Shown here: in pieces, positions 38,981 to 44,748 of the stretch
Position numbering within the stretch: position 1 is the stretch's first letter
Layout of the letters: each line of letters begins with the position of its first letter
Origin: Mesorhizobium sp. 131-2-1
GTDB lineage: Bacteria > Pseudomonadota > Alphaproteobacteria > Rhizobiales > Rhizobiaceae
Reading direction: 5' to 3'
Assembly (NCBI RefSeq): GCF_016756535.1
Contig: NZ_AP023247.1
Coordinates: 4,650,501-4,714,500 of the forward strand
Length of the DNA: 64,000 nt
The notes under the pieces: model-generated
Told to the model about the DNA's origin: nothing
What the model saw: the letters and a program-made list of their open reading frames with translations, nothing else
The model's database searches: none
Program-made: the position numbers and the translations under genes

Positions 38981-39471
38981 ACGCGGAAACGCCGGGACCG
39001 CGCCTTGGCGTCGGGATTCGATCTTTCCGTTTCATCGACGCTCCTGCCCGAGAACGTCTCATCGCTTCATGGAAACGCTGAACCGCTCCATCTCTTCGTT
39101 TTGAGGCAATTCCGGCCGGGGACAACGCCGGGCACGCCGTCGAGGACTGAGGAGAATCAAGGCCGTACACGTTGGTCCTAGGCCCTAGGTCGCTATTGCC
39201 CTCGTATTAGCATGAGCGCATGTTCAGACAAGCCGGCGAGGTCGCAGAAGCCGGTCAGGCCCGGCGGCCAACCCATACATCACCCCCCCTCGGCGGCCGG
39301 GCCACCTAACTTCCGAAGATGAGATGAAAGTACGCACCAGGGCGCCGACGAGCTGCGCCGGCAAGGCGGTGGACGCCTTCCTGTGCCTGCGGGCCAGAGG
39401 GGACCGCGAAGGATCGCTACTGAAGCGATGATGACGCCCCGGCGATCGGTTGAGGCGAGAGAAGCTTCCGC
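38981..39471. other. non-coding stretch downstream of the RiPP-type precursor
   Basis: About 490 bases with no convincing frame on either strand. A short CCTAGG-CCCTAGG repeat lies at about 39178. No radical-SAM, cyclase or protease gene is here. Decayed sequence is possible. Confidence 0.4.
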
Positions 39472-39558
39472 TCAGGGAGCCTTCGAGGAAACGCCCGCGG
39501 CAAGCGCTCCAAGCTTTCCGGCTTTGAGCAGTGTCGGCTTTGCGTAGGTCTTCTTCAC
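39472..39558 (-). CDS. orphan RiPP-type precursor peptide (lasso-leader-like)
   Basis: A 28-residue peptide from a GTG start, too short for usual gene calling. The leader KKTYAKPTLLKAGKLG carries the Y-x-x-P-x-L element with Gly a few residues later, as in lasso-peptide leaders bound by RRE proteins; rhizobial genomes contain many like it without nearby enzymes. The rest (ALAAGVSSKAP) has no Asp or Glu at positions a lasso ring needs, so it is not a standard lasso core. AAGGAGGG lies five bases before the GTG, and a TTGACA/GAGAAT promoter with 17-base spacing lies upstream. No maturation gene is within the window. Confidence 0.75.
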   Translation of the reverse strand: MKKTYAKPTLLKAGKLGALAAGVSSKAP

Positions 39559-39584
39559 GGAATCCCTCCTTGAGCGGAAGCCCG

Positions 39585-39613
39585 ATTCTCCGCTGCTTCG
39601 CCGGTTCTGTCAA
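39585..39613 (-). promoter_or_regulatory. promoter of the RiPP-type precursor
   Basis: Read on the minus strand: consensus TTGACA (39613-39608), 17 bases, then GAGAAT (39590-39585). Transcription would start about 20 bases ahead of the GTG, and the leader contains AAGGAGGG (39571-39564). Few other genes here have so complete a promoter. Confidence 0.6.
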
Positions 39614-39762
39614 CGCGCCGGGGTTGAGCAGCCCGAGACGGCCCTCAGTTCACGCCCAATCGCGTCGGCTGGTTCCACATACTCCGCCTGGTTGTGGCTG
39701 AGCCCGTCACGGCATGGCACGAAGATCATCGCGGCGAGCGCCGCTGGCGGCACGTTACTCGC
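39610..39762 (-). pseudogene. C-terminal remnant of an M20-type amidohydrolase
   Basis: The frame reads NVPPAALAAMIFVPCRDGLS then HNQAEYVEPADAIGREL. MIFVPCRDGLSHN-AE is the diagnostic C-terminus of N-carbamoyl-amino-acid hydrolases/allantoate amidohydrolases of the M20 family. Everything upstream of it is missing. The remnant ends inside the precursor's promoter, so the precursor gene lies in the scar of a deleted gene. Confidence 0.75.
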
Positions 39763-39830
39763 CGGCGGCGCCTGGCACTGGCGCTTTCGTGGAAAATGCG
39801 GGATCAATCGACAGCCGGGAAACGCTGCCG

Positions 39831-42146: not shown

Positions 42147-42352
42147 GCATCCTGCATCTTGATGCCGAAGCGCAGGCGGAATTGCAGGCCGAAGCTGAGA
42201 AGCTGATCGCCCGCTATGCGAGCCCGCTGGAAACGGTGAAGGCGCTGATGGCCTATAATTGCGAGTTGGAGACGCAGATCCTCGCACTTGCCCACCGCCA
42301 CCCGGAGCTGGTGTCGGTGAGCTATGACGATACGCCGGCGGTGATAGGCTGA
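42143..42352 (+). CDS. small helical protein B (paralogue of previous gene)
   Basis: A 69-residue helical protein (LDAEAQAELQAEAEKLIARY ... NCELETQILALAHRH) overlapping the previous gene by four bases. The two could form a heterodimer, as neighbouring small paralogues often do. Family unknown. Confidence 0.65.
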   Translation: MSILHLDAEAQAELQAEAEKLIARYASPLETVKALMAYNCELETQILALAHRHPELVSVSYDDTPAVIG

Positions 42353-42356
42353 GCGC

Positions 42357-42537
42357 CGTTGGCGCTGCTGCGCGGTTGCCCCCGTCGTCGCGCCGACGAA
42401 TGCCTAGCGTCAGGCGGCCCGCAGACCTTCCTTGGGACCGTCTCGTAGACACCACGAGCCCAGTCGACGCGCGCCTTGTCCATCGCCGGCTCGCGCCAGC
42501 GGGCGTGGACGTTCATGACGAAATACGAAGTGAGCAA
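42357..42537 (-). pseudogene. decayed C-terminal copy of the BBE flavin oxidase gene
   Basis: The DNA matches the end of the gene at 43309 in two blocks: the 3' end plus downstream flank (42357-42437) and a more 5' block coding FVMNVHARWREPAMDKA (to 42537). About 160 bases between the blocks are deleted and the rest of the gene is missing. Identity to the intact copy is high, so the duplication is fairly recent. Confidence 0.85.
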
Positions 42538-43308: not shown

Positions 43309-44748
43309 TCAGGCGGCCCGCAGACCTTCCTTCGGACGCAGGTTCTGGTTCATGCGGAACAGGTTTTGCGGGTCATAGCGCTGCTTGATCTCCAGCAGCC
43401 GGCGATAGTTGCCGCCATAGGCCGCTTCGACCCGGTCGACCTCGTCCTCCGGCATGAAGTTCACATAGGCCGTGCCGGCGGCAAAGGGCTTGGCTGCTTC
43501 GTAGATGCCGCGAGCCCAGTCGATGCAGGCCTTGTCCATTGCCGGCTCGCGCCAGCGGGCGTGGACGTTCATGACGAAATGCGAACTGCGCTGCGGAAAT
43601 GCCGTTGCATCTGCCTTGACGCGACCGGCCGCCCCGCCGACATGGCCGAAGAATATCTCGCATTCGGGACCCGGAAGCTTCGCAATCGCCGCCGTGGTGA
43701 TCGCGACCGCGCCATCTGAAAGCTCGGTGAAGTCATGGCTCTTCCAGTAGTTGCGGGCGCCTGGCGCAAGCAGCGGGTCGAAGGCCTGCTGCCAGCCGGT
43801 GAACGGATTGGGCCCGACGACATCGGCGATCGGCGAGCCGATGGCGCGGAGTTTCCGCGTCGCCTTCTCGCCGGCCTCGATGTCGCCGCAATAGCACATG
43901 GCCAGCACCAGCACCTCCTTGCCGTGCCATTCGGCCGGCAGGAAAGGCAGCGGTGGCGCCTGCCGCATGACCACCCAGCAGGTCAGTTCGTCGGGCGCAT
44001 CTTCCAGCGCCTCGCGATATTCCCGCAGCACTTTCCCGGCATCGGCGAAGGGATGGACGACAAGCCCCGACAGCACCTGCGGCCCGAACTCATGGAGCTG
44101 GAACTCGAACGCCGTGACGACGCCGAAATTGCCGCCGCCGCCGCGCAGCGCCCAGAACAGGTCGGGATTTTCGCTCTGGCTGGCGCGTAGCAGCTTGCCG
44201 TCGGCGGTGACCACGTCGGCGGAAACGAGATTGTCGATGCTCAACCCAAATTTGCGGGTGATCCAGCCAAAGCCGCCGCCCAGGGTCAGGCCAGCAATAC
44301 CGGTGGTCGAGTTGATGCCGGTCGGCACCGCCAGTCCAAAGGCTTGTGTTTCCCTGTCGACATCGGCAAGCGTGGCGCCGGGTCCGACCCATGCCCGCCG
44401 TGCCCGGACATCGACCCGCACCGACTTCATCATCGACAGATCGATCATCAGGCCACCGTCGCAGACGGCGCTGCCAGCGATGTTGTGGCCGCCGCCGCGC
44501 ACGGAGACGAGAAGTCTGTTTTCCCTGGCGAAATTCACGGCCGTTACGACGTCGGATGCGCCGACGCAGCAGACAATCAGCCCTGGCCGCCGATCGACCA
44601 TCGCATTCCAGATGCTGCGCGCGCCATCGTAGGCGGCGTCGCCTTCGCGCAGCACCGTGCCGCGTATCTGTGCCGAAAGTGCTTCGAGGGCGGCGGCACC
44701 GAGCGTCGTCTTGCCGCCTTCAAGGGTAGTGAAGCTCATGGCATTCAT
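43309..44748 (-). CDS. BBE-type FAD-linked oxidase
   Basis: A 479-residue flavoprotein oxidase of the FAD-binding-4/berberine-bridge family. The likely covalent FAD His lies in SVRGGGHNIAG; GLTLGGGFGWITRKFGL and the C-terminal BBE domain (RRLLEIKQRYDPQNLFRMNQNL) are intact. The second covalent cysteine of bicovalent members is not evident. It oxidises sugars, alcohols or alkaloid-like compounds; substrate unknown. A decayed second copy lies at 42357. Confidence 0.88.
   Translation of the reverse strand: MNAMSFTTLEGGKTTLGAAALEALSAQIRGTVLREGDAAYDGARSIWNAMVDRRPGLIVCCVGASDVVTAVNFARENRLLVSVRGGGHNIAGSAVCDGGLMIDLSMMKSVRVDVRARRAWVGPGATLADVDRETQAFGLAVPTGINSTTGIAGLTLGGGFGWITRKFGLSIDNLVSADVVTADGKLLRASQSENPDLFWALRGGGGNFGVVTAFEFQLHEFGPQVLSGLVVHPFADAGKVLREYREALEDAPDELTCWVVMRQAPPLPFLPAEWHGKEVLVLAMCYCGDIEAGEKATRKLRAIGSPIADVVGPNPFTGWQQAFDPLLAPGARNYWKSHDFTELSDGAVAITTAAIAKLPGPECEIFFGHVGGAAGRVKADATAFPQRSSHFVMNVHARWREPAMDKACIDWARGIYEAAKPFAAGTAYVNFMPEDEVDRVEAAYGGNYRRLLEIKQRYDPQNLFRMNQNLRPKEGLRAA

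Follow-up and report, generated by a model that had tools for sequence, protein, structure and literature searches.

Can a peptide gene of 28 codons that carries a lasso-type leader and stands apart from any maturation gene be a functional precursor, and if so, which enzymes would act on it? The question is raised by a minus-strand gene and its promoter at positions 39472-39613 of a stretch of 64,000 nucleotides (the window; C1:4650501-4714500) from Mesorhizobium sp. 131-2-1, whose genome comprises two contigs and 7.1 Mb. A first-pass annotation had described it as an orphan precursor of a ribosomally synthesized and post-translationally modified peptide (RiPP). Here, comparative sequence analysis leads us to propose that the gene probably encodes a precursor that is a satellite to a RiPP system acting in trans, in which the leader would be bound by a RiPP recognition element (RRE), a core serine phosphorylated and the leader cut off after Ala21, leaving a linear product.

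The precursor gene and its family

The product of all 28 codons, read from the minus strand of 39613-39472, is MKKTYAKPTLLKAGKLGALAAGVSSKAP. The GTG frame and the Shine-Dalgarno sequence five bases before it are as first described (Table 1), and so is the promoter, except that its -10 element ends 26 bases before the start codon, not about 20. The annotation had also taken this set of signals as strong evidence of expression. The promoter match alone is weak evidence, because three such sites occur in the surrounding 4 kb against 0.5 expected from shuffles; it is conservation across orthologues that carries the argument. A profile of three orthologues, searched against 146 Mesorhizobium genomes at E ≤ 1e-7, matched 20, nine of which, including the window's genome, have the KAGKL...SK type. 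The eight other orthologues of this type all adjoin DNA matching the window's neighbourhood: G388 and G414 share with it what we take to be an SRAP-type gene and its flanks (79-93 %), G018 shares the amidohydrolase end (70 %), and G083, G429, G406, G401 and G008 share the gene at window positions 44.9-46.3 kb (88-91 %). The start codon is GTG in eight of the nine orthologues and ATG in one. Mean pN/pS over the nine is 0.36 in the coding frame, whereas the two shifted frames give 1.63 and 1.12; third codon positions hold 417 of the 773 pairwise differences. Conservation of frame, ribosome binding site and promoter in close relatives, on which the annotation had staked its claim, is found in these nine genomes as far as sequence can tell. 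The window gene is, by these comparisons, under purifying selection, and it is almost certainly a real gene of a scattered family of YxxPxL peptides. A structured RNA was rejected as an alternative reading; the only Rfam matches in the window are two tRNAs, and the region folds no better than its shuffles (z 0.10).

The word 'orphan' did not survive the comparison. The gene is one of 11 matches in its own genome (Table 1) to a profile built from 46 aligned members, picked partly by their YxxPxL motif, and the large family to which it belongs follows a single maturation operon in its distribution. We surveyed 99 Mesorhizobium genomes and, at the level of the order Rhizobiales, 297 genomes from 122 genera. 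Counts per genome are profile matches, not all of which were read as peptides; they range from 3 to 20 in each of the 67 Mesorhizobium genomes that encode the kinase described below. The search of Rhizobiales for such short frames, as the annotation had suggested, found them in 6 of the 122 genera sampled. For tabulation, 59 members were kept of 78 candidate frames, 19 without fit to the leader motif having been dropped before counting; one of the 59 was typed with an added start Met. Precursors in the family are 27-48 residues long and share the leader consensus MKKTYEKPxLxKKGKLSAVTA (46 members). TTGACA lies within 75 nt upstream of 40 of the 59 (500 shuffled sets: mean 1.4, maximum 5); small frames preceded by a TTGACA promoter of their own are thus common here. 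Two precursors that resemble the window type by eye lie near kinase genes, KAGRLSGITAANGNS at C1:232414 in the window's genome and KAGKLSSLVAGGASKAL in L181 of G083, 1.3 kb from the G083 kinase. A frame just upstream of the RRE gene (L013 13510-13600, minus strand; C1:236.5 kb) has no ATG, GTG or TTG start close by and either begins at ATT or is a broken copy; it was therefore dropped as a model precursor, and little rests on it. G256 encodes, about 1.4 kb from its RRE-B2-kinase operon (L140 2856-3251, minus strand), a fusion of a YxKPxL-type leader with an endosialidase chaperone domain (Peptidase_S74).

Co-occurrence with a cyclase-free kinase operon

The maturation operon of the window's genome (C1:234.7-236.4 kb) encodes an RRE, a B2 peptidase and an HprK-like kinase and has no cyclase. 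The kinase adjoins RRE and B2 genes in all 12 loci compared, and the genome's own lasso cyclase, used as query, found no match in these operon loci of 8-19 kb (E ≤ 0.01). An NTP_transf_5 gene lies near the operon in all six loci scanned (own, L138, L139, L140, L149, L150). Beside the operon and its NTP_transf_5 gene in the window's genome is also a gene for a formyltransferase-domain protein (PF00551; L013 10577-11695, plus strand; C1:233.6-234.7 kb). The kinase was assigned to its class by its HprK/PEPCK fold and a P-loop with Asp-Asp. Among 120 database relatives listed, the named ones are nearly all from Mesorhizobium, with up to 90 % identity (M. abyssinicae); a pattern scan of named genomes gave at least 588 pattern matches, nine of them confirmed, including three that are weak and outside Rhizobiales.

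Within the genus survey, the kinase was found in 67, the peptides in 68 and B2 in 77 of the 99 genomes. All 67 kinase-positive genomes are peptide-positive; the extra genome, G096, has a single match at 7.7e-5. B2 occurs without the kinase in ten genomes (G016, G020, G035, G046, G060, G065, G074, G082, G096, G098), and these bear on the most obvious alternative, namely that the window peptide is a lasso precursor served by a true lasso cluster. Its leader is of the lasso type, and the genome does hold a complete cluster (L025 4171-7282; C1:261-264 kb) with a precursor (core GGSGTTALD...), RRE, B2 and a cyclase that scores 782 bits against NF033535 (cut-off 525). This cluster lies about 26 kb (its cyclase about 27 kb) from the cyclase-free operon; in many Mesorhizobium genomes the two B2 genes are separated by roughly 25-33 kb. 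In the ten kinase-negative genomes, a lasso-cyclase-like gene lies within the same 15-16 kb in 11 of 11 B2 loci; seven of the genomes share the cluster of the window's genome, with cyclases 78-80 % identical, and G016, G020 (two loci) and G098 have others (29-31 %). By profile search the peptides are absent from nine of these ten lasso-cluster-positive genomes, whereas they are present in all three genomes with a single B2 beside the kinase (G040, G068, G069; G068 is 79 % complete). The peptides thus follow the kinase operon, not the lasso cluster. The core points the same way: GVSSKAP has seven residues and no Asp or Glu. Of 59 family peptides, four have Asp or Glu at core 7-9, and two combine it with Gly, Ala, Ser or Cys at core 1, the window core not among them; Thr at -2, a lasso feature, is absent from the window peptide (Ala20) and from all nine orthologues, which have Ala or Val. 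On core, cyclase and distribution we rejected a lasso precursor as very improbable. The two G020 loci (L185, L184) are two further lasso-type clusters of another kind; there, in a genome without the kinase, a precursor-like frame (RTVPVKRVYEKPTLTPLGHMAQVTQ...) has a YEKPTL leader like that of the phosphopeptide family.

At order level, 13 genomes from 7 genera encode the kinase, and the peptides were found in 11 genomes from 6 genera, all kinase-positive; the profile search found peptides in none of the 284 kinase-negative genomes. Five peptide-positive genomes outside the genus (G141, G337, G228, G256, G373) have a precursor match within about 2.6 kb of the kinase. G337 has ten matches on four contigs, and in some non-genus genomes other matches lie far from the kinase. 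Only weak peptide matches were obtained in G256 and G373 (best E 0.001-0.002), backed by adjacency to the kinase. That the enzymes might be encoded elsewhere in the same genome, one of the options first raised, is supported by this co-occurrence, and we consider it very likely that the window gene is matured in trans by the RRE-B2-kinase operon. The search for RRE-containing cyclases in the same genome led to RRE maturation genes in the operon but to no cyclase there, the cyclase being part of the separate lasso cluster.

Leader, core and predicted modification

The first-pass reading of a RiPP-type precursor with a lasso-type leader holds, as YAKPTL matches a YxxPxL motif whose three fixed residues are invariant across the 46 aligned members, and so does its observation that the core has no ring-closing acid. 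In Bsf-type clusters, YxxPxL is reported to span -17 to -12, the kinase BsfK phosphorylates core Ser3, and B1 speeds phosphorylation and helps B2 to remove the leader (PMC10368454). If the window Tyr is set at -17, the cut falls after Ala21. Position -1 is Ala in 58 of 59 family members. A core serine is present in 58 of 58 genus-set cores and in 21 of 21 from five other genera (21 frames judged leader-bearing of 27 printed, with six unrelated-looking frames left out). It falls at core position 5 in 36 of the 58 (8.9 expected by shuffling within cores) and in 14 of the 21 (2.5 expected). Among cores less than 50 % alike, Ser is present in 34 of 34 and at position 5 in 18 (5.3 expected). The invariant Ser-Lys of the nine orthologues aligns to core 4-5, one position earlier in G008, which has one leader residue fewer; core residues 1-3 are variable.

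The conservation of a hydroxyl residue and of a kinase gene, together with the lack of a cyclase, points to a linear phosphopeptide. The 28-residue precursor would be made from its own sigma-70-type promoter, the conservation of which is observed. By homology, the YxxPxL leader would be bound by a PqqD-like RRE, a stand-alone protein whose gene lies on the same contig at a distance of about 4.5 Mb. The HprK-like kinase of the operon to which that gene belongs would phosphorylate the core serine (Ser25, core position 4). The lasso-type B2 cysteine peptidase would then remove residues 1-21, leaving linear phosphorylated GVSSKAP; with a lasso cyclase missing from the operon and Asp and Glu from the core, no ring would form. 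The neighbouring NTP_transf_5 nucleotidyltransferase may add a further group. That the serine is phosphorylated and the product linear seems reasonably likely on these sequence grounds, and our guess for its role is a secreted signal or a peptide linked to the surface or to polysaccharide.

Two other fates of the peptide were weighed. It could stay unmodified and give rise to no product, acting instead as a decoy or regulator that, by binding the RRE through YxxPxL, would tune the maturation operon. This would suit its very short core, the lack of Thr at -2 and the 3-20 matches per genome. However, Ser-Lys is invariant in all nine orthologues while much of the core varies, and all 79 family members tabulated have a core Ser; because a decoy needs no conserved core, this counts against a pure decoy, and we regard it as unlikely. 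To a similar degree we doubt that the operon matures the peptide in trans with a main modification other than phosphorylation; the NTP_transf_5 partner might, for instance, transfer a nucleotidyl or glycosyl group while the kinase has a different function. The partner's presence near the operon in the six loci would fit this, as would the likewise undefined final product of linear polyphosphorylated peptides (LPPs; PMC13381572), but the HprK-like kinases of two studied relatives are reported to phosphorylate a core Ser.

Evidence against the proposal and the state of the window copy

Several observations weigh against phosphorylation and maturation by this operon. The kinase scores far below the NCBIfam and Pfam HprK cut-offs, and only one of five AlphaFold models of it is confident (mean pLDDT 84.7, the others 50-57). 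G174 and G255 encode the kinase and gave no peptide match in the order-level profile search. Genus-level co-occurrence takes no account of kinship and so overstates independence; occurrence in six genera carries more weight. The family features come from searches seeded with the same family, a biased sample. The window serines stand at core 3-4, not at the commoner position 5. Position -2 of the window peptide is Ala20 and not the family's Thr (of 59 members, 41 have Thr, 12 Val, 5 Ala and 1 Ile; Val or Ala thus in 17), although for Bsf-type clusters Ile, Val or Ala has been reported or predicted at this position (PMC10368454). Finally, an inverted repeat could partly hide the Shine-Dalgarno sequence and lower translation of the window copy.

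This 16-nt repeat is 15/16 complementary and spans the gene from Shine-Dalgarno to stop codon; at least 14 was reached in none of 200 shuffles. It is present in the window's genome only and absent from the eight other orthologues, which rules out a conserved regulatory hairpin. Its arm is no dispersed element either, as besides its own two arms there are two-mismatch matches only, fewer than for a control pattern. With a hairpin over Shine-Dalgarno and stop in this genome alone, the window copy may be expressed at a lower level than the orthologues, or be regulated differently. Such a lineage-specific hairpin, Ala at -2 and the remnant next door would all suit a relic, a former precursor now degenerating in this lineage. 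The amidohydrolase-like frame of G018 (L095 7183-8427) has 414 codons and ends at the promoter of the orthologous peptide gene; in the window it is reduced to its C-terminal end, presumably of hyuC type, and the peptide gene is still whole. Frame, promoter and Shine-Dalgarno are thus intact beside a decayed neighbour, the eight other orthologues also lack Thr at -2, and the pN/pS over the nine speaks of constraint; we give a relic very little credence.

Two features of the surroundings are recorded here. Positions 39385-39425 are a piece of a repeat that is dispersed over many sites in Mesorhizobium genomes, with about 79-93 % identity. A FVMNVHARWREPAMDKA fragment of a gene that we assume to be FAD-oxidase-like (43309-44748, minus strand) is present twice, the other copy at 42322-42537 (minus strand), which looks like a partial duplication.

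Table 1 Features of the precursor gene (window positions) and profile matches in the same genome (C1 positions)
Feature	Position	Strand	Remark
Precursor peptide gene	39472-39558	minus	28 codons, GTG start, TGA stop at 39474-39472
Shine-Dalgarno AAGGAGGG	39564-39571	minus	Five bases before GTG; GAGGAG/AAGGAG in 9/9 orthologues
Promoter TTGACA-17-GAGAAT	39585-39613	minus	TTGACA kept in 9/9 orthologues
Predicted leader, residues 1-21 (MKKTYAKPTLLKAGKLGALAA)	39496-39558	minus	Cut placed by Tyr(-17) rule (PMC10368454)
YAKPTL (YxxPxL), expected to bind RRE, residues 5-10	39529-39546	minus	Y, P, L invariant in 46 aligned members
Predicted core GVSSKAP, residues 22-28	39475-39495	minus	Ser-Lys at residues 25-26 invariant in 9/9 orthologues
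Ser25 codon, candidate phosphorylation site, core position 4	39484-39486	minus	9/9 orthologues
Inverted repeat, 5' arm	39566-39581	minus	Overlaps Shine-Dalgarno
Inverted repeat, 3' arm	39464-39479	minus	Overlaps stop codon
C-terminal remnant of amidohydrolase-like gene	39610-39807	minus	Longer frame upstream of orthologue in G018; no Pfam match
Profile matches in the window's genome	C1:4459765-4460379 (four in tandem); singles C1:4615799, 3680314, 1475902, 1373975, 232414; frame at 236.5 kb; window gene

Relation to known systems

One maturation machinery serving many precursors encoded away from it is familiar from prochlorosin-type RiPP systems; prochlorosins are lanthipeptides, with enzymes and leader unrelated to those considered here. 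Closer in parts are the LPPs, which PMC13381572 describes as restricted to Bacillota. As reported there, LPP systems resemble the present one in a Y-type [Y/W]xxP leader, a stand-alone RRE, an HprK-like kinase, an NTP transferase and a core set without cyclase, and in a phosphate near the core N-terminus, on Ser3 in LPPs and predicted here. The LPP combination of RRE, HprK-like kinase and NTP transferase without cyclase is found here, though with a kinase below the HprK family cut-offs. The same text gives the LPP peptidase as archaeal-type signal peptidase, whereas ours is B2, and the precursors as 35-200 residues long with one to three per cluster, in contrast to 27-48 residues and mostly scattered genes in Rhizobiales. 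The LPP leader YxxPxVLxHQxIxFETxxS is not matched by the family consensus. With the Bsf-type phosphorylated lasso peptide of Bradymonas, the window system has in common an RRE (B1), B2, kinase, nucleotidyltransferase, YxxPxL and, as reported or predicted for Bsf, Ile/Val/Ala at -2; it differs in that Bsf (PMC10368454) has a cyclase, a transporter, a Gly1-Asp8 ring and its precursor inside the cluster, while the window operon lacks a cyclase and the core a ring acid. The system would work like an LPP or a ringless Bsf peptide but, judged by the features compared, belongs to neither class.

The Pfam family DUF5972 (PF19397), described as of unknown function, matches leader residues 2-14 of the window peptide at 16.8 bits, below its cut-off of 22.6; as a search handle it proved useless, with sub-cut-off matches in 10 of 14 control genomes. 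A full-text search of one open-access library returned no paper on DUF5972 and none joining 'RiPP precursor' with Mesorhizobium; further searches of that library brought up PMC10368454 and PMC13381572 and nothing recognised as this system.

Implications

We lean towards a general model for Mesorhizobium and a small number of further Rhizobiales genera, in which one RRE-B2-HprK(-NTP transferase) operon acts on mostly scattered and often separately promoted precursors (3-20 in Mesorhizobium, 27-48 residues) and turns them into short linear Ser-phosphorylated peptides, forming a cyclase-free branch of lasso biosynthesis outside Bacillota. An apparently orphan peptide thereby becomes part of a testable enzyme-substrate system. 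As the same genome has a true lasso cluster bearing a Y-type leader, it is a natural setting in which to ask how the substrates of two RREs are kept separate. If the model is true, cyclase-free phosphopeptide RiPPs would not be confined to Bacillota, substrate sets would be defined by leaders rather than by gene clusters, and genome mining beside the enzymes only would miss most precursors. With copies scattered and separately promoted, it seems that these plant-associated bacteria can make different peptides under different conditions.
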